From NCBI GenBank assembly GCA_029531795.1, contig JAPEIS010000006.1, positions 2,418,001 to 2,482,000 on the forward strand: a stretch of 64,000 nt of DNA. The letters are read 5' to 3'. The DNA is from Sclerotinia nivalis. Its lineage: Eukaryota > Ascomycota > Leotiomycetes > Helotiales > Sclerotiniaceae. The position numbers were made by a program, and so were the translations under genes. The notes beneath the pieces were generated by a model. The model was not told the DNA's origin, made no database searches, and saw nothing but the letters and a program-made list of their open reading frames with translations. This document shows positions 16,935 through 61,616 of this stretch, piece by piece. Within the stretch, counting starts at the first letter, position 1. Each line of letters opens with the position of its first letter.

Positions 16935-18650
16935 CTGGATATATGAATTTATCAGTCGTGCTTGAGGGATGTGGGTAGGATGGAAGAACAGTACATAGTC
17001 TTGCGTTGGGAGTTGAGTTAATTTGGGTTGGTATGGTGGATTCCGTTTTGTATAGATGTATGGGTATGGGAGCAAAAATATGATTGGGCGGTTAGTTGAT
17101 TTTGCCGGATCGAAGGGTGTTTTTCTCTTGGTGGTTGGCTAGGGCAAAGGAATGGTTATGGTTCTAGTGCAAAAGGGGAAAGGGTATTCTTACGAGTTGC
17201 AAGGAAAGGGAATTAAAGGAATGAAACGGATCGGCATTTTTGGTTTCGAAAACCTATTGATATGGTCTGCTTCTAAGGGGAGTAAGGTGTCAGATGAAGT
17301 TGCGTTGTATATATTAATCAGACGACACCAGGTCAGATGGCCATTTGGCTTGGAACGCTGAGGCGGAGCTTGCATGCAATTTTAATGGGACATGGGATAT
17401 AACATATACAGAAATTTGGAAATGTGGGATGTGGTATGATAATCCTTGGTGTTGCAAAACATACGGGGAATGGCTTTGCAAGGAAAGATTCGGGGTGGGG
17501 TTAGATGAGATGAGATGAGTATGAGGAATTAGAATATAAAGTTAATGAAATATTTATTGATAGCATATTATATCTTTATTATATTAACTATATTGAACGG
17601 CCAGTTGTTGTTTTTTGGCCATTTGAATTGTGAGGTGAGGTGAGGTGATATATAATCATCGTCGCGAAAAGCAAGCAGCCCCAGCCAGGTCTTCCAAGCA
17701 GTTATGCAAGGCTGAAGTAGAATATCTTAGCCAAGGGAATAAAGCAAATCACATGGATTGAAGCGTTGATCGAATGTAATCGGGTTATGACATTCGAAAT
17801 TCGGCTTTCTTCTTCGTGGTTATGAGTATCTGGTAAGATGAGAAATATACTGCTTGGATTTGTGTTTATTATGTGAAGTTTAAATGCTCGGGTCGATTTT
17901 TACATTCACAAGGTTCAAAAACGCATTGCTCCTTTACAGTCTCTATTCCGGACAGACAATCGTCTCTAAATGTTATAGCTACCTATATATGGCCAAGTTC
18001 TTTCTTAATTGACTCAATTGGCCGTTCGATTCTCCGCACCTTTCACAAATGACCAGCTCTTCAGATCTAGATAGATAGAACTACCGAGAGCGCTTGTGGT
18101 AAATGCACCAATGTCTCATATTTTGGACATTCATTGACTTTTACTGTCGGGGCTGTACTGCTGTTACTGTCCGCAGTAAATCAGATATATCGAGGCTTTC
18201 AGTTATGTGAGTTAGGTGTTTTTCCCTTATGTGGATAATATTTACCGCCGTGCTTCGAGGCTTGTTTGAGCTTGAGATTAATCTTGCTGTGCTTGTAGCT
18301 CGGCTTTTGTTTGTTTTGAGAAGAGGTTGGAGGAGAGGTAATCCTTTGTATCCATGAGAATAACCACATATTAAGGTAGCACAAAATGTGAAAGGAAATG
18401 CTGAATCCTTGAGGGAATCACTGGACACAAGCGCTTCAACGTTAATGTCAAAGCCATTTTTATGAAATTGTCCCGTTTGACATAATAATCGTATTTAGCA
18501 ATCTCTATTCACTGACTAGTACACATTTTATTCACATAGCAGATACATGAGAAATTTAGTTTAGTTTTAATATAATTTTATTATGACTCCGATTTCCGAT
18601 TGAGATCAAGAAATACGAAATGAGAAAGGAAAGAAAAGGAAGGTGAATCT
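16935..18650. other. Intergenic, convergent 3' ends
   Basis: This holds the 3' flank of the zinc-cluster gene and, to its right, the presumed 3' end of the mini-intron array transcript. An AATAAA on the minus strand near 18574-18582 could serve that transcript. The short frames (17152-17375, 18141-18428) have no recognisable family or codon character. Confidence 0.5.
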
Positions 18651-20240
18651 ACCTATAGAATTAGTTAACGAAAAAGGGGGAATGGGGGAGGGGGTAAGGA
18701 CTTACCTATATAGTATAGTAGTACTTGGTGCTGGTATTCCACGAGTAGGAACATCCAAATATGAGAGAGCTGGTAAGAAAGTGAATGAACTTACCTAGAA
18801 AAACTTATTAATGAGAAAGAAGGGGGGAGGGGAAAGGACTTACCTGCGCAGTATGGTGTATATATAGATGCATGCCTATTTTGAGGACTGTGGGTACCAG
18901 AATACACGGAGCGTGAAGAAATGAAATTAAACGCACCTAGATGACCCATTAGCAAAAAGAGGAAGAAGGAAATGACTTATCTGTATAATGCAATGTATAT
19001 ATAAATGTAAATCTATACTGATGGCTATAAATACCATAATATCGGGAGCGCGGAGAAAAGAAAATGAAGCTTATCTATATTTCGAATTAGCCAAGAGGAG
19101 AGTGATGGAGGACTTACCTACTAAAAAAGTAGCCTAATACTTTGCCTGGTATCTAGAGCATCAGAATAGAAGAAGAAGAAGAAGAAGAAGAAAAAACTAC
19201 CTATAACCGATTAGCGAAAGAGGAGTGAGGAAGAACTTACCTGTATATTTGAGAAGATTCTGACAAGTACTACACTACTGTATTCTCGGAATCTAACGGA
19301 CAAATTTTTGTAAGAATATATCTTTATAACTAGTTAGCTAAAGAGGAAAGGGCGGGGAGAAATGACTTACCTAAATATTTATTTCGGCTGTGATATATCT
19401 CAATGTTATAGAATCGGATCGGAAGGAGGTGAAATATATGGATTATGTATAGTAGTTAACAGAAACGGGGATGGTATGACTTACCTGATTAGATTTGATG
19501 TCTAATTTTTACGACGATTATTGGGAATTGATCTTGCGAGAAATTTTGGTGTGAAATAAAAATGTATTGGTATACCTACATACTCAAATAGCAAAACGAA
19601 AGGGGAGGAATGACTTACCTATCTTGTTCTCCTTGGTTATTGCAAGAATATAGGGATTGAATGATTGAAAAGATTGATAATAGTACCTAACACGATTAGC
19701 AAATAGGGGAAGGGGAATGGCGTACCTGGATTTTCGTCTCTTGTGACAAACATATAGAAAGAATTATAGTAATACCTGTGTACTCAATTAGCGAAAGGGG
19801 AGGAATGACTTACCTGATTTCTCTCTCCTAAAAACAAATACATAAAAATAAAAATGAAAAATACCTATACTCAATTAGCGAAAGGAAGGGTGGAGAAATG
19901 ATTTACCTGATTCTATCTCCTAACAACCAAAAAAAATATATATATATATACCTATACTCAATTAGCGAAAGGAAGGGAGGGAATGACTTACCTGGACGTT
20001 TGAGAGAAAAAGAAATGAATATAAAAAAACTGTACTCAAATTAGCGAAAGGGGGAGAGGGAGAAATGACTTACCTGATTCTATCTTCCAACAACAAAAAA
20101 TAAAAAATAAAAACAAAAATATACCTATACTCAATGAGCGAAAGGGGGGGGGGGGGATGACTTACCTGAACGTCCGAGAGAAAAAGAAAAGAATATACTC
20201 AATTAGCAAAAGGGGGAGGGGAAAAGAAACAACATACCTA
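18651..20240 (-). repeat. Tandem array of about 15 mini-intron-like units
   Basis: Read on the minus strand, each unit has donor GTAAGTCA, a C-rich stretch, a branch-like TTTCGCTAATT and an acceptor TATAG, about 38-55 nt in all. A typical unit occupies 19952-19991 (40 nt). Spacers of about 38-90 nt separate the cores and often end in GAGATAGAATCAG just before the next donor. On the plus strand the units read ACTCAATTAGCGAAAGG followed by GACTTACCTG. Cores lie near 18653-18705, 18800-18845, 18940-18980, 19070-19117, 19200-19251, 19325-19372, 19450-19486, 19574-19619, 19685-19727, 19776-19813, 19863-19914, 19952-19991, 20032-20073, 20123-20165 and 20195-20237. Right-hand units are near-identical; left-hand ones are strongly diverged but most keep donor, branch and acceptor. 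A few are damaged: an AT instead of GT donor near 18980, and no AG right after the core near 20195. Whether they splice is not known. Confidence 0.85.
19166..19196. repeat. AGA trinucleotide microsatellite
   Basis: A run of AGA units inside one spacer of the mini-intron array; on the minus strand it reads as a TCT pyrimidine run just upstream of a donor. Confidence 0.8.
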
Positions 20241-20607
20241 ATTCCTATCTCCTAAACCCCCCCTCCCCCACCTCCAAAAAAAGAAGAAAAAATAAAAACT
20301 CTAAAAAAAATAAACAAAAAGCAAAGAACGAACAAGAGAAAACTTACAAACTTATCAATGTATATCTTAAAAAAACAAACTATTTTTATTTAATTTTCTC
20401 ATCTTTATTTTCTTTTCTTTTCTTTTCTTCAACTTCTCATTTCTATTTTCCATCACCTTTTTGATTTGATCTAAAAAGAGCGAGTGACTATAAGAAGGAA
20501 AAAAAAGGATGGATGAAAAACAAATGGAAAATGTAGCGGGATAATCGTGATCGTGTCGTAATCGTGATTTCAATAATGATCGTGATTTTAATCTTATCTC
20601 ATCTCAT

Positions 20608-20657
20608 CTAAAGAAAAAGGAAAAAATTAGCACACAAATTCTAGGGAAAAAACTCAC
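20608..20657 (-). other. Candidate 50-nt intron in the 3' UTR of the small membrane protein gene
   Basis: Just after the stop codon at 20697 the minus strand reads ATGAG then GTGAGTTT (donor at 20657), a TGCTAATTT branch and a TTCTTTAG acceptor ending at 20608. A second donor GTAAGTTTT follows at 20347, with a TTTTTAG near 20300. This would make the mini-intron array a continuation of the same primary transcript. Prediction only. Confidence 0.4.
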
Positions 20658-20696: not shown

Positions 20697-21068
20697 TCAC
20701 GAACTCCACCCCCTCCCCCTCAAAAACCAAGCTACCACCACACTCCCCACAGCCATATACCAAGCCGGAATGCCGCTATTACGCGGTGGTTTGACGTTGA
20801 ATTTCGTAAAGGATGTGTAGGAGTCTAAGGGTGATTGTGGTTGTGGTTCGGTTTGTGTTCCGCTGGATGACTGGGTCGGGCAGGGAGTCTGCGTAGAGCG
20901 GGATATGTTAAGGGATGTTGAGGTCGAGGGGGGGTTTGGGGTGGAGTTTGAGCGGAGGGAAAAAGGGAATGTGTTAGAGCGGGTCTTCGATTTTGATTTC
21001 GAGTTCGGTTTCGAGTTCAATGTGGAGCTGCGACCTGGAAGGCGAACGTGCGGGATGTGGAAGGGCAT
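20697..21068 (-). CDS. Small Ser/Thr/Pro-rich protein with one C-terminal membrane segment
   Basis: A 123-residue frame that I do not recognise. The N-terminal 90 residues are Ser/Pro/Thr/Asn/Lys-rich and apparently disordered. The C-terminus holds one hydrophobic segment, GIPAWYMAVGSVVVAWFL, followed by the basic RGRGW end: a tail-anchor layout with the N-terminus in the cytosol. A possible start codon lies at 21068. It is divergent from the 487-residue gene at 21757, with 688 bp between. Downstream in its own direction lies the mini-intron array, so its mRNA may have a long, multiply spliced 3' UTR or alternative 3' ends. The opposite strand carries a 68-codon frame, which I take as a shadow. 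Coding status is moderately supported. Confidence 0.5.
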   Translation of the reverse strand: MPFHIPHVRLPGRSSTLNSKPNSKSKSKTRSNTFPFSLRSNSTPNPPSTSTSLNISRSTQTPCPTQSSSGTQTEPQPQSPLDSYTSFTKFNVKPPRNSGIPAWYMAVGSVVVAWFLRGRGWSS

Positions 21069-21756
21069 TTTCTTCGGTTGCGGTTGGGTTTGGGTTCGGG
21101 AATTATTCTGATGTTGTGGGTGAGATGATCGATGATCGATATTGACGTTCAGAGGGATTGGTGTCTAGTGTGGTGTAGTAACCCGATGGTACTATGTGCT
21201 GAAGAGAAACGAGAAGAAAAGAAGAATAGAGATGGGAATATGTAACATTAAATACACATCTTCCCATGTTCAAACAAAGGAATCTCCTTCCCTTGAATCT
21301 ATTGTTCGGGATTTCTTGAAAGAAAATGAAACAATGTAATTATTCGCTCAAAGAACAGTGTTCCTAGACAAGATTTTGTTATATTCCTCACAAAGAACTC
21401 TCTCATACGTATAAAGAAATACTAAAACAATGTTCACTCTAATAGAAGTCTCTGTTGTTCAAAACAAAGCGTGTCAATAAAGGAAAACAAGACATGTGTG
21501 GAACAGAGCCAGATAAATAAAATAAAATATACTTACTTCTAGAACGTATTTAAAACAATGCGATTATGAATATACAAAGAGATCTTCAATTCCAGAAAGT
21601 AATAGGAGATTCAAGAGATCGAAACTATCTAGATTTTAACATCCAGTCTGAACATGCAGTTTTAACATCCAGTTTGAACATCCAACCGGAAAACAAAGTA
21701 CTTACTCAAACCACCAAGAAATCAAGAAACCCAACACAGCAACAGCAACAACAACC
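21069..21756. promoter_or_regulatory. Divergent promoter region
   Basis: A 688-bp AT-rich spacer between two divergent genes, containing several A-rich tracts. A CAACAGCAACAACAACC stretch just before the plus-strand ATG is typical of a fungal 5' UTR. A direct repeat TTTTAACATCCAGT / TTAACATCCAGTTTGAAC lies at about 21636-21680. No RNA gene seen. Confidence 0.5.
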
Positions 21757-43305: not shown

Positions 43306-43386
43306 GGCCCGGTGGCCTAATGGTTAAGGCGCCAGATTTCGGTCTGAATTCTCTGGAGATTGGGAGTTCGAATCTTCCCCGGGTCG
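43306..43386 (+). tRNA. tRNA-Arg (anticodon TCG) with an 8-nt intron
   Basis: The cloverleaf folds fully. The acceptor stem is GGCCCGG with CCGGGTC (one G-T pair). The D arm is GGCCTAATGGTTAAGGC. The anticodon stem is CCAGA with TCTGG and the T arm is GGGAG-TTCGAAT-CTTCC. The anticodon stem encloses 15 nt: a 7-nt loop with anticodon TCG at 43339-43341 and an 8-nt intron (43343-43350) after position 37, the canonical place. Internal control boxes are intact and a T-rich stretch follows the gene. The tRNA reads CGA codons. Confidence 0.92.
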
Positions 43387-47051: not shown

Positions 47052-48247
47052 ATGGCGAACCTAACCACCTTTTCGATCAATACAACAACAATGTCCCACC
47101 TTCCGCCACTTCCTTCTTACACTCTCACTCCTCTTAAACCACTCATCCCTTACATATCCGACTTCTACCTCTCTCTTATTCTACCGATTGCCGCATACTG
47201 GATTGTATCCCTCACCTTCCATTTAATCGATACTCTAGACATTTGGCCGCAATACCGTTTGCATACACCCGCAGAAATCCTCAAACGCAATCATGTCTCC
47301 CGTTACGAAGTCGCCCGCGATGTCATCATTCAACAAATCATTCAAACAATTGTTGGAGCTGTGCTAGGTCTTACCGAGCCGGAAGAAATGACCGGAAAAA
47401 CCGAATTCGATATTGCGAATTGGGCGCGAAGAATACGCATAGCGCAAAGAGCTTTACCTTCTATTTTAAGTCTGATTGGACTTAACGCATCCGCAATATC
47501 GAAAAATGTATCAGGGAACTGGCCTATGGTTGCGGGAGTATTGGCTGGTGGTAAATATCCTAGTTTAATCGGTGGTTTGGATATGGCCAGTGGCCAACAA
47601 ATTCCGGCTTTTGCGGAATGGGAAATGTGGGCTGCGAAGATAATATATTGGTATATCGTACCGGCTTTACAATTTGGGTTGGCAGTTGCTATTGTGGATA
47701 CTTGGCAATACTTTTTGCATAGAGCTATGCATATGAATAAGTGGTTGTATAGTGAGTTTTCATTTTACTGAACCTCTTCGCGTGGAACGATAATCTAACT
47801 TGTGATTTTACAGCAACTTTCCACTCCCGTCATCATCGTCTCTATGTTCCATATGCCTATGGAGCACTGTACAATCATCCCTTCGAAGGTTTCCTCCTCG
47901 ATACTCTTGGTGCATCAATCGGCTACAAGGTTGCTGGCATGACATCTCGTCAAGGAATGGCATTTTTCGTCGCCTCAACTATTAAAACTGTAGATGATCA
48001 TTGTGGTTATGCACTTCCATGGGATCCTCTTCAACATATCACAAGTAATAATGCAGGATATCATGATATCCATCATCAAAGTTGGGGAATTAAAACAAAT
48101 TTCAGTCAACCTTTCTTCACTTTTTGGGATAGAATATTAGGGACTGTTTGGGTTGGGGATACTGCGGGAAGGTATGAGAGGAGTAGGAAGGCGGCGGAAC
48201 TATTGGTTGAGGCGGATAAGGTTAATGTTACGGAGAAGGAATTGTGA
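47052..48247 (+). CDS. SUR2: Sphinganine C4-hydroxylase (Sur2-like), two exons
   Basis: Exon 1 runs 47052-47751 and exon 2 47814-48247 (62-nt intron, GTGAGT donor, CTAAC branch, TTTTACAG acceptor), for 377 codons plus stop. It belongs to the fatty acid hydroxylase superfamily and adds the C4 hydroxyl to dihydrosphingosine to make phytosphingosine in the endoplasmic reticulum. All three di-iron histidine boxes are present: HRAMH (residues 223-227), HSRHH (237-241, spanning the splice junction) and HDIHH (317-321), plus the typical PYAYGALYNHPFEG and KTVDDHCGYALPWDP. Hydrophobic segments include FYLSLILPIAAYWIVSLTF and IVPALQFGLAVAIVDTW. A second ATG at 47091 (MSHLPPLPSY) could also be the start. 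C-terminal extension after WVGD is short and charged. Confidence 0.94.
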
Positions 48248-48997
48248 ATGGTGGAAATGGAGTGGATGAACGTATGAAAGAGATGAGAGGAAAGAGAAAG
48301 AATGTATATTACGACCACCACACACACAACTGTTCGATGGGTATTTGGGATTCTTCTTCTTCAACGACTACCATTCTATGTATTGATTGGAAATTTGGGA
48401 TAACACTTTCGGGGAACAACTTTTATAGGGAAGGGAAAGCGGGCGCTTTCTATAAGGGAGGTGATGGAGGGTGATGGGGTGTGTACATTATGAAAGATTT
48501 GACAAGCCGCCAAGATGACTCGTCAGGGGGACGGTGATTATGGCGAGATTCCATTCACTTCAAGTGCAGAATTCATTCGGTGCAGGGAGTAGGCAAGTGG
48601 AATTGGGGATTGATGGATGGATAATGATAAGGAGTGGAGAGGAAAGGACAATATTCAACTTAAGTTCAACGAAGGAGATGAGGACAAGGAAGCCGGCGAG
48701 ATGATAGGATAAATGGAATGCAATGAGGATGACCATGGGGTGGATGAAGATGAAAACGGAGCGAAGCGCAAAGAAAGGATACGATTAATAGTAATATTAT
48801 AACCTTCTATTCTTGTTTATTACATTACTTCATAATATGAGATATAAGATGAACACAGAATTTTTATCCATACTTTTATACATTTTTACTTCTTATTCTC
48901 GTTCTTGATCTTGATAAGTTAATCAATCAATCTTATACTATTCTTTATCCTTCGTTTTTCGTATTTCGTATCTAGTTTCCGAATACAATAGTACTTC

Positions 48998-49045
48998 GGA
49001 CTCGGACTCGGACTCGGACTCAGACTCGGATTCACACTTGGATTC
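48998..49045. repeat. GGACTC hexamer microsatellite
   Basis: Five to six CGGACT units with drift to CAGACT, GGATTC and CGCACT at the right end. Confidence 0.8.
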
Positions 49046-49139
49046 GCACTCGGAAAAATTGGGTATGCAATTTATTGTGGGGATTTGGTGTAGCGGTGTA
49101 TTTGGTGGTTAGTGGAGTGGTGTGAATGGATGAGGTGAG

Positions 49140-49180
49140 GGACGTGGTGTGAGTGGTGTGAGTGGTGTGAGTGGTGTGGC
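49140..49180. repeat. GTGGTGTGA minisatellite
   Basis: Three to four units of GAGTGGTGT, flanked by wider GTGG-rich sequence. Confidence 0.75.
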
Positions 49181-49388
49181 AAGTAGATGGGATGAGTGGA
49201 GTGGTGTGGTGGGTGAAGTGGTGTGGTGGAGAGGAGGAATGGAGGGGATTTGAAGAGAGGAAGAGGAGGAATGGAGTGAGGTGGTTGAGGTGAGGGGAAA
49301 TGATGGATGAAGATGAGATTGAGGGCGGATGCGGGTTACGGACATATGATATCCCGCTCTACGTATCGATTTTGCTTGTGTTTAATGC

Positions 49389-49503
49389 TGGGTATTGGGT
49401 ATTGGGTATTGGGTATTGGGTATTGGGTATTGGGTATTGGGTATTGGGTATTGGATATTGGATATTGGATATTGGATATTGGATATTGGCTATTGGATAT
49501 TGG
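49389..49503 (+). repeat. Heptamer repeat GGGTATT then GGATATT
   Basis: About nine GGGTATT units followed by about six GGATATT units and a terminal GGCTATT variant. The first half has regularly spaced GGG triplets with 4-nt TATT loops and could fold into G-quadruplexes. Confidence 0.9.
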
Positions 49504-50489
49504 ATGAGAAATTGAAAAGTCAAGATTTTTCTGCCTGGAAGTACTGTGAGATTTGGTATGGGGTATTAGGGTATTAGGGTTGTTTATGAAGGAGGGTAGA
49601 AGAGAATAGAGGAAAGGAGGGGAGAGGAGGGTAGTGGAAAGGAGAAGAGAGGGGAGTGTGAAATAGATGATGTGGACTAGTTGGAATGGTGACTGGATGA
49701 AACGAAAATGGAAAAGCGGACGAAAAGCGGTTGAGGAAGAGAAAGAGATGTAGGTGAGTTGGGTTGCTGAGTTGCTGAGTTGCTCGAAAGAGTGATGGTA
49801 TTTCGGGGCTCTGAACAGGTTGGAAGTTCGCCGCTGTGTTCCGGGTGATGTTGCTTGGTGCGGTATATCATTTATGAATACTCCAATGTCACAGTATTGG
49901 ACGCAATATAAGGTTATTAATAAACAAAATAAAGAGAGGATAGGAAGTAAAGAGTTAATAAGAACTAACGGGGTAAGTGAATGGATGGGTTGATTTCTAG
50001 GAGGGGATATAAAGATTGAACTGATTGATCGGTGACTCCTGACCTATAGATGAGGGAGATCAAAACAATCACCAAAAAATGGTCCTGGATGGATGTAAAC
50101 TTCGGGGTTTTAAGAAATGTGTTGGAAATAGGCAGGTGGATTGGGTGTGAGGAGAAAGGGTTGTGGAAGGCGGGAGGTATGGGATGGAGGTAGGATATTG
50201 CGGTGGAGGGGGAGGGCAAAGAAGGTGTGAAAGAGGAGAGAGGATGAGATAGTTAATGATGAGATTTCAACGGTAACCCCGTCCTAAATTTGATAGCGAT
50301 AAAAGCACAAACCGTTACTTGGTATGATATCAGTGTCATGTATATGGAAGTTCATGGTATCACCTCAATCACCTTCTCGGGACCAATTTCTCGAGAGCGA
50401 AATCTCCGAGCTTCCTACTGCCTAGCCAGAAAACATCTGAACTTACTCTTTTTTGAGGAACTGGTATCCTGATCTTTGGGTTTATGAGA

Positions 50490-53400
50490 GGAAAGGGGAG
50501 GGTGTTTATATATGGAGGAGGGAGAAGGAGTGTGAATCGTGGGTGGAGTGAGGAGTGCGGAGAGTAAGGAGTGGATACGATGAAGGAGTGAATGCATTTC
50601 CTTAATGTTTAGGTTTAGATGGTTGAATTGAACATCAATTCCTTTGAATCTAGTGGATCATATCCTTTAAACCCCAAGAAACGGGGTAAAAAAGGTACTA
50701 AGCCTATAAGGAAGTATTTAAAAGGCCTCCACACCTAGAAGTTTTTCTCAGTACATAGGAAAACTTGATGGAGGGTGTACATAATTTAGAAGGTGGGAAG
50801 TGGAAGTGGTTATTCCTAGGAACGAATAATACACGAGGAGAAAATTGTATGCGGGAGGGCTGTGCAGAGAAGAAAGGGTTAGAGGGGAAGCTAGGTGCGT
50901 GTAAAATCGGTGGTAATATTTGAGATTGAAATTTGTTGGTAAGAGATAAGATTTATGACGGTCATGGGATAAAAGTAATGAAGAGATATGACTAATCATC
51001 AAGTGTAGTTAGTAGTTCCAAGGGGAAACTACTCCTCGGCTATTCAAAATGATAGTTAGAGCTTTGTAATGAGTGAGAAGAAACCTCATACAGATATGTA
51101 TTGGAATGAGTTTCCTTCCGGCTTTTGGTAGACCGGAAAGAAGATTTTATATAAAGATTGATTGTAGGGTAGTGTTATGAGGCTATGATATCCTCCAGGG
51201 TTTTGAGAAGAATGTAAAAGTAAATCGATTCTTTGATTTCTTGAATTCATGTGGATGGATAGCATGCTATCTTTTGGGTATTTGTGGATATAAGGTGATT
51301 CGTGGTCTCGGGAGTGGGGAAGAAGGAATCAGAGTGAAAGCAACGATATATAAACTACGTTCTTTCTCAGCGACTGGGTTTCTTCGATATAGAAGAGGTC
51401 TTTTATCGACAGAGAACTCAAGGTTGTGAGAATGGAGGGAGAGATGAAAATGCACTTTTGAGGAAGGAAGCGGGGGGAGGAATTCAAAAGTTGTGAAAGA
51501 GGGGAGAAGAAAGGAGGGTAAGGGAAAGAGTTATGGTGCAAGGTGACGGTGATGATTTAAGACGACAATCATAAGAAGTGCAACTATCATCCGATGAATG
51601 ACGGTGATAGCATGTATACACCCGCCATCATGTATTCCAGTCTAGTACTATCTTCCCGATCTCTCTTTCTCGAAGTTTAACCTCCGATCTTCGACCTTTC
51701 GATTACAAGGACGCGCGAAAGTTCGTAGAGGCCCAATCCCATTATTTTCTGGTCTCCTTTTGGAGTCTACATGAGTAGCAAGAACGGGAAGTTTATATAG
51801 ATCCGGAACAGATACCAAGGTGGGCACAATAGTGAATATGATGGTAGTGTCAATGAGGAGTAAGTAGTGGATCGATTCCTTCGATTACCTGACTCTCTCG
51901 AGCTTCATATTCATGATTACCTACACAGAGTATTAGGCCGATATCATATCTGTTCCTTTCTTGTGAGTGAATTAGGTAGTCTCAACAGTATGTAGAAGAG
52001 AGGGAACAGAGACAGAAGTCAAGGTGAAACCTTTATAAACACGTCTCAGAAAGGCTAAGTTTTTCAGTATTCAACCTTCTCAGACATTCCTACGCGATGA
52101 GCGAGGAATGCTCGGCAAGTGTAGAGATGAATCAGTCTGTGAGCTCGAGAAGAAGGCAGGAAGGTAAAAAAAATGTTATTTGTATTGGGAAAATTGGCGG
52201 ATACGGGGAAGTGGGAAGGTTCGAAGTTGGTAATGATGAGAATTTAGAACAACAGTGGTAAGGATATCGGCTATTTTCCGATTGATGATAATGGTAGTAT
52301 CTATACACTCACCATTCTGCGAAATTTCAATCTATCATTTTCTCACTTTCAATTTCTCGGGGTTGAAGGCTTGAAGTTTGCTTCTCCGAGAATGTCTCAT
52401 TGAGCCCCTCTCCCAGTGATTGCTTTGATATTTCTTGAAGGCTAACAAGTAGAGCAGACAGACAATATATAGGGTAGAAAATTTAAGCGAGAACTTACTA
52501 TAGTGGGGTGGTGACGTAATAGGGAGATAACACTACTGAACTGAAGACATCAATGTTCGTATCGAATGATTAAAATAGTACGTCATATATGAGTGAATAG
52601 TGAATCAAAAAGCCTAAATTAAACGGAGGCTAGGGAAATGAGAAAAGAAAGAAATCAAAAAGGTTTGAGGATATTTAAGTATACATCTATTATGACTTAT
52701 AAACAAACATGTGAGCGTTATCCGGTACAACAATATGGTGGTTATAGACATGGGGGAAAAGTGAAGAATGTAAAGATGCTGGATTTCTACCTACCAAACT
52801 CGGTATGTAGTTTATTTATCACTGCTGTAGTCAAGAGTGTTGTTGAATCTATTATTTTATGTTAGTCTCCTTTTGTTTGTCGCCGATATTGTTGACTTTA
52901 TGCGTCACGGACCACTGTCTCTTCTTTCCAATATCAAGCGTGTTCACCATCCTAAGTTGGTGATATATCTTTCAAAGGCTTATGGTTGCCGAGGACATTA
53001 CGAGAATTTCAACAAGTTTGGTCGGCCTAAACGCTCATTCTATTCTTCGATCTCTGCCGCGATCTCGATCACTTGCTAATTGTTGGAAATTTTCTGGCCG
53101 ACCACATGTATTTTTTAGGAAATGCTTAATCTTAAGTCACTAGATGAATAGTAGAGAGGTACTCATTCTCATGTCTTACATATATATCACTATTACAACA
53201 TAATATATTACTTATCATCCATTCGTTTGAAAGATCGATATAGCTTAATTAATCCGGTCTCGGCGGGACGATATCTAAGCCTTGATTCTTTGACTGCATA
53301 CGAAGAAAAATTGGGCATGTCTAGGCCAATAATTCTGATATCAAAAGATCATAAGGCCGTTTGAGGGGTGTATAAGGGGGATTAGGTTGTTTGCATTTTG

Positions 53401-57820: not shown

Positions 57821-59575
57821 ATCCCAACATGAAATATAGTAAGATTTTACCACTAGACTAGAAAGTTAGAACTAATAAACACATCACCATCTCACTTCAT
57901 CTCTAATCCTCAATTTAAACCCAATCCCTAATATCTCCATCTCTATCCCGACCCATAATTCTCTATCCAGGATACTTCACCAAAATTCACCCAACGCACA
58001 CCATCCCTACTATCTCCCTCAGCCTTCTAACCCCAGATCTTCCTATTACTCTTTAGTACACTATATAACCTCCTCCCCCTCTTTCCCACCCCGCCGCCGA
58101 AAACGCAACAGACCTAAATCGACATCCATCTAAGAAACTAACTGACTCACAATTTCTCCCACCTCAAAAAGTACAAACTTTTTCCACCTACCCTGATCTG
58201 ATTATTTCTACCCCAGGAGGAAAATCGATCTATTAATGTGAATTAGGATAGGAAGAAGAGTATAATAAAGGAAATGACAGCAATAACAATAATAATTCCT
58301 TCAACTCATTTCTCATTTCCTACAAACCAAAAAAAAGCAACAATAATAGTAACAAATTTGAAAGCACAATCCAACTCCTTAAAAAAAAGTAATAAAACCT
58401 TCCACCCATCTATAAATTCAAGCATAAAAAAACAAAAGGAAAGAAAAGAAGGAAGCAAAATCTCAATACCACACCCCAATCCCATAATCCCTGCCACAGC
58501 ATCGCATCATCCAGTCCAATAATCTATTAACAAAAGATCTCCCAAGTAAACCCGTTTAATACAGCCCAAGTAAGCCATTAAAATTCCATCTATTCACTAA
58601 ACCAAAATATAAAAATAATAACGAACTTATCCATCCCATTTTCCCAAAGCCTGCTTCATCCTCACCCTCACCCTCAACCACAACCACCACCAAAATCCCC
58701 CGCCAAATCCTCACTATCCAAAAAAGATTTACTCTACCTTCTACCCTTACAATCCTTCAATTTAATTACCCTCGCTATAATCCAACAATCTCCCCAACCA
58801 TCTCCCCAATTATCTCCCATCTTTCATCTTTCCCATACAAACATATACACAATCCCAACAACAATTCCTTTAAACAAACCATCGAACCCTCTCAGATCTC
58901 AATCTGTACGCCGCTCGAATAACACAGATATATGTATATATATACGCGAATAAACCAGGACTTATATACATAGTTTAAAAATTCCATCAGATGTAAAAGA
59001 AATCATCTTACTATTCACCATTCATCATTAATCAAAGATCAATACATACTATCACCACTAATCTATTTCCTATTTCCTAATTCCTATTTCCTAATTCCTA
59101 TTTCCTATCTCCTATCTATCCACTATCTAATATTCCCATCCATCCCCTCATCCCCCCATTCCCTCTTCAATTCCCATCCATCCATCCACCTTTTAAACCC
59201 CATCCTCCATTTTTGATACATACATACAAGACCAGCTTTGTTGTGTACTAGGTATTTCCATCCCCATCCGCATTCCCATTTTCCTTCCACATCCTTCCTT
59301 CCACATATGAGTACAAACCCCCACCCCAAAACACCCAAAACACCCCGCTAAACCGCAAATAAGTGCAAGTAGCTTTCCCCCAAAATGCCAAGATATCATT
59401 CCATCCGCTGTATCATTCACCCATCTCTTCTTATTATCATCACTTGTAGTTTTACAATCCTCCAATCGTCGTCCAATCGTTATATATACACACACACACA
59501 CAAACCTATTCATACACTTTCTCTCCCCAACCCCCAATTCTATTTTCCCTCTTATTCTCCCACCCCATCGATCCC
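57821..59575. other. Gene-free, C/A-rich tract downstream of the CBM48-like gene
   Basis: Rich in CATCC, TTCCTAATTCC and ACACAC runs (59067-59115 CTATTTCCTAATTC units; 59490-59505 ACAC). It probably contains the 3' UTR of the minus-strand gene ending at 59576. The frames at 59123-59769 are shadows or low-complexity. Confidence 0.5.
59067..59120. repeat. CCTATTTCCTAATT minisatellite
   Basis: Five or more units of TTCCTA with alternating ATTTCC and ATTCC spacing, decaying to CTATCTCCTATCTATCC. Confidence 0.75.
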
Positions 59576-61616
59576 TCATTTATCACGAATAGTATCACCC
59601 AAATACCCCATATCGTCCAAAAAATCCGCCAATGCACTTCCCTCCCCACCCTCACTTTCCTTAATTCCCTCCACCAATCCCGAATCTCTCGGATAAGTAT
59701 CATTACTAGTCGTTCTCGATAACAAACTCGAAGCTTTGCGAATAGTTTGTTCCGATGCAATATCTTCATCCGGTAAACTATATCCTATAAATTTTCTTCT
59801 CTCAACCTCTGAAATCATTGGGTTGTATGTAAAAGTATCGGCAGTTTCTTCATTGATATCACTTTCATCATATGAATCGAACATTGATGAAGTATCACTG
59901 AAGCCGAAATGACTATCGGTTGGAGAAGTAAGAGCTGTTGAGATGGTTGAAACGGAGAAGTGAGATCTTGGTAGTGTTAAAGAGAGATTTGGAGGAAGCG
60001 GTGATGAAAATGATGACGTAAATGCATCATCTGGAAGTTGTGGAAGTGGTTTGGAAGTATCAAAAGTTGGTGATGGTTGTCGACGAGATGGTGTTGGAGA
60101 TAATTGAGTAATACTGTTGTTATTTTCAAAGACCAATTCTTTAAATTGTGTGGCAAAGTTATCATCATCTTCATATTCTTCGGAAATTTCTTCGGGTATA
60201 CCGAGAGTTATGAGGTTATCATGAACAGAATCGTGCGCTCTGGTAAAAGATGATGTTCTTGAAATTGGTTCGGAGTTGGCTGGGCTAATTTGATGAATAG
60301 TATTCGAGTTTGATGAACAACTTCGTAAGGTAGCTTGACTGGTATCAGGCTCAGATGATCGTCTTGTAGCAGCTTGGTCAGCTGGTGATGAAGATCGTGA
60401 TCGACGTCCCGAAAAAAGTTTTGTTGCCCAACCAAGCTTTCCATCTTTTGACCGATGGCATGGCTTTTCTGCATGTGATGATGATAATGAAACAGATCGT
60501 GTAACATCTGGTTTTGATGGAGGAGCACGAGGAGTCATGAATTTATCCGCAGGATTCATTGTTTTGCCTTCTGTAATATTTACAGAATCTACGGAACCAC
60601 TTCGAAGTCTTGGTGTTGAGACTTCGATTGGTACCCAAAGAATATTGACTGGTTGACCTGGCATATAAGGACAAGTGGTAGTGGAAGGTATGGCAGTGTC
60701 ATGAACTTCGATACCATCATCAATCTCATACTATATAAAATTGTGAGTATTTCATCTCAATGCTTAGGCAATAAACATACATAGTAGTAATATGTTGAAG
60801 CCATTTTTAAACCACCAGTTCTTTTAATGGAACCATTTCCATCGCCATCACAGATAATATCATTAAATGTGTGGCAACCTCGCCATTGCTCACGAGAGCG
60901 TCTTGAATCTCTCTCCATTGGATATCGTTTAGTGAAATTATCCCAAGATCCAACAAGTTGAACTGATTGTGTTCTAGGCGTTGCTTGACTAAAAAGATTG
61001 TAAAAATTAGTTGTTATGATTAAAATGATTTCTTCATGATGTGAACAAAATGATCTCTTATATCTAAATACATTCCAACTATCATCGAGATCATCGAGCT
61101 CGATGATCTCGATAGACTTTGGCAATATCCATCTCCTATCTTGGCGAAGCAGGGAACCACAAAGTTTGACTAGAGTTGCGGCCGTTCCCGAAGTTTCAAA
61201 AGACAATATGGTATTAGTGAAAGCATGTGCATAATAAACTTCATTGTCCATGCCTATGACGAAATACATAGTGATAAAAGGTTCTGTAAATAGAAGATGC
61301 ATCATCTAGAGACTCAAGATAAGATGAACATTTTTGTCTTAAACTGAAACAGACTATACCTCTGAGGACTACAATGACTATTGATTCCAGACTTGATTGG
61401 TAAACTTTTCCAAATCTCTTGGTAATGTATGAAGCAAAGGTAATGAACGGTCCCAAGGTTATCAAGAAACAAAGTTTCTTTCAATTCAATGGTTGCCTCA
61501 ATGGATGACCAATGCGCATGTAAGAACAGAACACGTGATAAGATATTCAATTTGAGCTTAGGGAAGAAATGAAAACATTCAACTCACAACATGAAAGTAA
61601 TTAGAGTAGTATCCAT
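59576..61616 (-). CDS. CBM48/E-set-like protein with long disordered tail, three exons
   Basis: Exons 61616-61588, 60988-60781 and 60730-59576 give 463 codons plus stop. The N-terminus reads MDTTLITFMF then QATPRTQSVQLVGSWDNFTK, RSREQWRGCHTFNDIIC and GGLKMASTYYYYYEIDDGIE, a glycogen-binding-like Ig fold (CBM48 type, as in AMPK beta subunits). PYMPGQPVNILWVPIEV ends the domain. The remaining 330 residues are Ser/Thr/Pro-rich and disordered, with acidic stretches (EEISEEYEDDDN) and a short C-terminal helix ALADFLDDMGYLGDTIRDK. Probably a regulatory or scaffold protein. The exact function is unknown. The first intron as modelled is 599 nt, ten times longer than others here, and holds protein-like open frames on the same strand, so the 5' end may be more complex. 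No catalytic motif. Confidence 0.75.

Follow-up and report, generated by a model that had tools for sequence, protein, structure and literature searches.

What keeps 15 intron-like units standing head to tail at one fungal locus, and could they be spliced? This question is raised by an array on the minus strand of a 64,000-nucleotide (nt) stretch of Sclerotinia nivalis DNA, hereafter the window, which is part of contig C6 (JAPEIS010000006.1, positions 2,418,001 to 2,482,000) of a 50.3-Mb genome assembled in 31 contigs. A previous reading of the letters alone, here called the sequence-only reading, had described about 15 tandem miniature introns on that strand between positions 18651 and 20240. 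Profiles, shuffles, and control DNA confirmed the 15 units, and the coordinates proved right (Table 1). We favor, with little more than even confidence, the interpretation that these are mini-introns multiplied by tandem duplication within a non-coding transcript of the minus strand and that they have been kept for splicing.

Each unit consists of a YAG and then the donor, a C-rich tract, a branch-like word (mostly GCTAAT), and, usually, a nearby YAG; donors are spaced 72 to 138 nt apart. The donor with its preceding bases reads AG/GTAAGT in 11 units (the other four, U1, U5, U7, and U13, are given in Table 1), starts with GT in all but U13, which has AT, and is preceded by YAG in all 15 (10 CAG and 5 TAG). 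A branch of the form CTAAY, TTAAY, or CTCAT is present in every unit except U8, and most units have a single branch word. With the acceptor defined as the nearest YAG no less than 6 nt beyond the branch, 12 units have one 10 to 14 nt past the branch, the exceptions being U1, U9, and U10; the cores of these 12 are 38 to 53 nt long. Donors, branches, and acceptors are those of U2-type introns, and the full canonical set is present in seven units (U3, U4, U6, U11, U12, U14, and U15). Between donor and branch lies the polypyrimidine tract, an arrangement shared by 83% of the Fusarium introns described in PMC5677156. Because CTCAT, TTAAC, and TTAAT are listed there as Fusarium branch variants, the variants in the array are known from fungi. 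Scored with a simple position table from the same source, which is not MaxEntScan, the donors of the array are unusually strong, 11 of the 15 reaching or exceeding the 84.9th percentile of donors sampled from the Fusarium frequencies.

Table 1. Positions, in window coordinates, of the intron-like units and of candidate features of a host transcript.
Feature	Position	Strand	Donor	Description
Array	18650..20240	minus		15 tandem intron-like units, U1 at high end; from patterns, alignment, profiles
U1	20166..20237	minus	20237	GTATGT donor, GCTAAT branch, no near YAG; next YAG abuts U2 donor, 72 nt
U2 core	20125..20165	minus	20165	41 nt; CTCAT branch
U3 core	20030..20073	minus	20073	44 nt; every signal canonical
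U4 core	19952..19991	minus	19991	40 nt; every signal canonical
U5 core	19865..19906	minus	19906	42 nt; GTAAAT donor
U6 core	19776..19813	minus	19813	38 nt; every signal canonical
U7 core	19687..19725	minus	19725	39 nt; GTACGC donor
U8 core	19576..19618	minus	19618	43 nt; weak branch region (GCTATT)
U9	19388..19484	minus	19484	canonical donor, GTTAAC; first subsequent YAG at 97 nt from donor
U10	19293..19370	minus	19370	canonical donor, GCTAAC; first subsequent YAG at 78 nt (AAG at 49)
U11 core	19201..19240	minus	19240	40 nt; every signal canonical
U12 core	19075..19117	minus	19117	43 nt; every signal canonical
U13 core	18937..18980	minus	18980	44 nt; ATAAGT donor (first base not G)
U14 core	18795..18843	minus	18843	49 nt; ATTAAT branch; GTAAGT immediately after acceptor
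U15 core	18653..18705	minus	18705	53 nt; GTTAAC branch
Possible host open reading frame	20697..21164	minus		stop to stop, 155 codons, first ATG 21068; C-terminal hydrophobic stretch
Possible ordinary intron	20608..20657	minus		upstream of array, 50 nt; GTGAGT, GCTAAT, TTTAG; candidate found by eye
Possible poly(A) signals	18527..18582	minus		behind U15; AATAAA at 18582 and 18532; word search

By these and the following measures the array is real and non-random, and it is probably constrained. AGGTAAGT occurs 12 times on its minus strand (the twelfth copy, at 18794, follows the U14 acceptor) and not once in the remaining 62 kb of the window; control DNA from the same genome (262,100 nt, both strands) has seven, with no more than one per 1621-nt stretch. 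A YAG followed by a full short intron was found seven times in the array and never in the control. When the YAG requirement was dropped, the control gave 29 matches, at most two per 1621-nt stretch; of 28 intron-like patterns in the control, many of them perhaps chance matches, none had a YAG ahead of the donor. A similar intron pattern occurs eight times in the array, whereas 2000 dinucleotide shuffles gave 0.0085 on average and never more than 1; counts vary among these searches because the pattern definitions differ. None of the intron-like patterns is present on the array's plus strand. Leave-one-out profiles recovered all 15 held-out units (E values from 1.9e-11 to 0.0088, versus 2.8 to 6.8 for the best matches outside the array). 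A sequence-only model of all units scored 23 to 46 bits at the 15 units and 8.4 bits at the next best site in the window, and gave no score above 11.8 bits in a further 29 genomic loci totaling 227,493 bases. The cores have more branch words than shuffles (13 versus 5.8), and the exons have fewer (3 versus 8.4 expected from dinucleotide shuffles, P = 0.02), with no significant deficit in the diverged exons of U8 to U14 by themselves (3 versus 4.7, P = 0.28).

The units differ in age, and the older ones bear on whether the signals have been maintained. Among U8 to U15, in columns that we picked by hand and between units that are not independent, pairwise identity is 0.97 in the donor (−2 to +6) and 0.92 in the branch TAA, versus 0.56 at +7, +8, and +10, 0.30 in the four letters after the branch, and 0.27 at exon positions −5 and −4; the last two values are near chance. 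AG/GTAAGT is kept in seven of these eight units, where about 3.8% would be expected of ordinary Fusarium donors if positions were independent (frequencies from PMC5677156). Because donor and branch have been kept while adjacent letters drifted, this looks like purifying selection on the splice signals, and because the bodies of exons and introns alike lack conservation, such selection would be on splicing itself. The pattern suggests that it is important to the cell for this RNA to be spliced.

The array appears to have grown by duplication of whole intron-exon units. U1 to U6 include recent copies: the block U1+U2 is 76% identical to U3+U4, and the post-branch letters of U2 to U6 are identical (1.00). 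The exons of U8 to U15 are barely alignable. Some of the old exons are nevertheless still related, and introns and exons were therefore probably duplicated together; among the 21 pairs from U8 to U14, z was 7.4 for U12-U13, 3.9 for U11-U14, 3.6 for U8-U10, 3.3 for U12-U14, and 2.5 for U13-U14, with most remaining pairs below 2. In one model of intron gain, a stretch containing AGGT is duplicated in tandem to give an intron. The array has AG/GT at the donor in 14 units and GT after the acceptor in 11 of 15, as expected if AGGT-holding DNA was duplicated. With the intron gain by AGGT tandem duplication described in PMC4974935 it shares AG/GT at both ends of most cores and a head-to-tail origin; the case in that source involves one gained intron, in a coding gene, whereas here an intron-exon unit has seemingly multiplied to 15.

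Several observations weigh against the favored interpretation. The first is core length. In a pattern-based estimate of host intron length from 262 kb of control DNA, intron-like patterns exceeded those of the reversed sequence at 48 to 56 nt (19 versus 3) and showed no excess at 36 to 44 nt (4 versus 4). Fusarium introns start at 42 nt in the data of PMC5677156, and 5 of the 12 short cores fall below that minimum. The cores thus appear to lie at or just under the usual length limit, and it is mainly because they are so short that our confidence is held where it is. Second, the units are intron-shaped, but the wording of the sequence-only reading that nearly every unit carries the signals is somewhat generous, since eight have a noncanonical or missing signal; among the recent units, U1 no longer has a near acceptor and the branch of U2 is altered, and the U13 donor is broken. 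Third, the units were found and aligned by their donors, which favors conserved donors. Fourth, position −3 of the donor is a pyrimidine in all 15 units, for which we have no explanation. Finally, one frame of the joined exons has only six stops in 822 nt, versus a mean minimum of 12.7 in shuffles (P = 0.002), which would fit coding sequence, although T-rich runs may be the cause.

Short cores and damaged signals in several recent units are also what would be seen if a minisatellite had amplified intron-like DNA that is unspliced, or incidentally spliced, and has no function. The tandem structure, detected as an array by Tandem Repeats Finder (TRF), and its recent two-unit duplication fit this explanation too. 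An unconstrained repeat, however, would lose donor and branch along with their neighbors, and the diverged units have kept both next to letters that are near chance. We regard the minisatellite as unlikely, but as the alternative that survives best.

The pyrimidine at −3 would make sense if the junction doubled as an acceptor. Every unit boundary reads YAG/donor and could therefore act as both acceptor and donor, and because most cores leave GT behind, stepwise recursive removal is conceivable. The array could then be a splicing-dependent device in a non-coding RNA, of which splicing itself (occupancy by the spliceosome or U1) is the product and whose introns are shorter than those of the host. 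We find this doubtful. When we scanned 6 to 45 nt before 13 unit-end YAGs, yTRAy occurred once, versus about 8.6 times in mononucleotide shuffles, and the unit-end YAG was rejected as an independent acceptor. The exceptions are U1, through its own branch, and U14, at its acceptor; only in these two (U1 via the U2 boundary, U14 via GTAAGT) is an acceptor joined directly to a strong donor. By the Fusarium table, donors rebuilt after core removal are at or below the 12.8th percentile in 10 of the 12 units tested, with U13 at 78.6 and U14 at 96.6. The stwintrons of Hypoxylaceae, as described in PMC8469720, share with the array that YAG/GTA can form a second donor once a core is removed; in a stwintron, however, an internal intron interrupts a splice element of the external one, whereas the rebuilt donors here are weak in those 10 units. 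In five of the 12 exons the rebuilt donor would reach or exceed the 10th percentile of ordinary donors, a cut-off similar to that for the recursive-splicing exons of PMC6224609, but taken from the Fusarium table rather than MaxEntScan; recursive use in the array is putative, and the five include several recent copies.

Pairing with U1 small nuclear RNA (snRNA) was also considered, and rejected, as a cause of the pyrimidine at −3: the 5′ end ATACTTACCTT would pair with A, not with C or T. Two U1 snRNA-like genes of this genome (L036:1501-1645 and L037:1501-1645) have this 5′ end, with U at position 11; both fall just under the Rfam cut-off, with E values of about 1e-14.

Because the cores are very short, donors might instead pair with the branch and acceptor of the next unit or a later one, which would make the array one long intron region with competing sites. 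The branch A lies 26 to 41 nt from the donor in the array, and 29 to 33 nt in 10 of the 15 units, whereas the excess of control donor-to-branch distances over the reversed sequence spans 30 to 46 nt and falls mostly at 38 to 46 nt (21 versus 8). U1, U9, and U10, with no near acceptor, would also be accounted for. Yet the control has a small excess at 30 to 34 nt (3 versus 0; none at 22 to 30 nt, 7 versus 8), so the short spacing may be usable, and 12 units keep a YAG 10 to 14 nt past their own branch. Pairing across units is in our view improbable.

A coding gene built of repeats, each with its own intron, would account for the stop-poor frame, and the last three exons are open in a single frame. 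The best frame still has its six stops, and exon lengths share no remainder modulo 3. Codon scores of the joined exons (−0.34, −0.36, and −0.44) are at the level of shuffles (−0.39, standard deviation 0.04) and do not reflect host codon usage; true genes scored +0.12, but they belonged to the training set. We consider a coding gene very improbable. Because codon usage in the exons is not above that of shuffles, the suggestion in the sequence-only reading of a spliced non-coding RNA or untranslated region (UTR) fits. Structured exons were tried and rejected: among 10 folded pieces (the exons of U2 and U7 to U14 and the tail behind U15, a sample to which the exons of U3 to U6 and the cores do not belong), nine folded no better than shuffles (z from −0.96 to +0.75), and U2 gave −2.47.

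Least credible of all is an introner-like expansion, in which a mobile mechanism inserted the units separately: they are similar introns with AG/GT at the donor and often GT after the acceptor, but related exons such as those of U12 and U13 point to joint duplication, and genome-wide searches with the array, a two-unit piece, and the core pattern returned, among the matches listed and with counts that are lower bounds, the array itself and one isolated match on C15. The sequence-only reading had raised this possibility and proposed looking for dispersed copies of the unit; no such copies were among these matches, and the idea was rejected. The introner-like elements of fungi in PMC4457414 and PMC8469720 likewise comprise several related intron units of one family in one genome, but as described there they differ from the array, whose detected copies all lie head to tail in one place in DNA that is not coding-like. 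Near-identical copies in many unrelated genes were not found in our genome-wide searches.

A strict pattern (AGGTAAGT, CTAAT, TAG) matched 22 times genome-wide, versus 28 for the reversed control; 4 of the 22 rows, from three units, are in the array. Triples of AGGTAAGT at a spacing of 68 to 98 occur in two places, the array and C16:511753-511941, with none in the reversed control and about 0.0002 expected if the words were independent. Close pairs are frequent because of simple repeats, with 10 found versus 41 for the reversed pattern. The C16 cluster (L039:1501-1691) has four AGGTAAGT in about 190 nt, in the sense direction, immediately past the stop of an amidoligase-family open reading frame (L039:150-1487). 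It shows no evident kinship to the array; a branch-like word and then a YAG follow two of its four donors, and the first intron-like stretch stops exactly at the next donor. It is a hint that strong donors clustered behind a gene may not be a unique occurrence. An array of DNA-binding sites was set aside, the diverged units having lost the CAT of GTAAGTCAT more than GTAAGT.

To the left of the array lies a plus-strand Zn2Cys6 transcription-factor gene (13.7 to 16.9 kb), and to its right the minus-strand open frame of Table 1, with a gene beyond it at 21.7 kb. The best named homologues of a neighboring gene are from Stromatinia cepivora (89%), Sclerotinia trifoliorum (82%), and Botryotinia/Botrytis species (72 to 74%). 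Whereas that gene gives Sclerotiniaceae homologues at once, the 155-codon frame has no Pfam family and, in two protein searches, no homologue within its length range. The sequence-only reading had also raised a splicing sponge in a 3′ UTR; a placement of the array in a 3′ UTR would rest on this frame. Besides the two candidate signals behind U15, AATAAA is present at 20409, 20390, and 19383. At the Rfam gathering score the array matched no RNA family; the sole match in the window is a transfer RNA gene (43306-43386, plus strand) whose anticodon was not assigned by ARAGORN. Elsewhere in the window, the heptamer TGGGTAT is repeated about 16 times at 49389-49503 with a 97% match, and strong GC skews of opposite sign mark 48001-52000 (+0.50, +0.35) and 58001-60000 (−0.54).

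Returning to duplicated mini-introns as the reading that we favor, we infer transcription of the array, excision of most cores, and selection on splicing or on spliceosome binding. The array would consist of minimal U2-type introns duplicated in tandem together with the short exon beside each, in a long non-coding RNA or a long 3′ UTR. The minus-strand host transcript would end near 18.5 kb. U1 and U2 small nuclear ribonucleoproteins would assemble on every unit during transcription, and most cores would then be excised. The fate of the RNA, whether retention, decay, or export, would be the final output and would hinge on these many events.

Non-coding transcripts whose introns are more conserved than their exons are familiar from the host genes of small nucleolar RNAs (snoRNAs). 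The array resembles these in that its introns are conserved above its exons in a putative non-coding transcript, and differs in that its cores are only 38 to 53 nt long and have no Rfam match, to a snoRNA or otherwise. We found nothing similar in an open-licence literature library and listings, a result that does not prove that no such array has been published. If spliced, the array would be a very intron-dense non-coding RNA and a case of apparent selection on splicing in an RNA that encodes nothing. Its young and old copies would form a series in which the multiplication of introns by tandem duplication can be watched, and its short cores would be a natural test of the minimum length of a spliceosomal intron.
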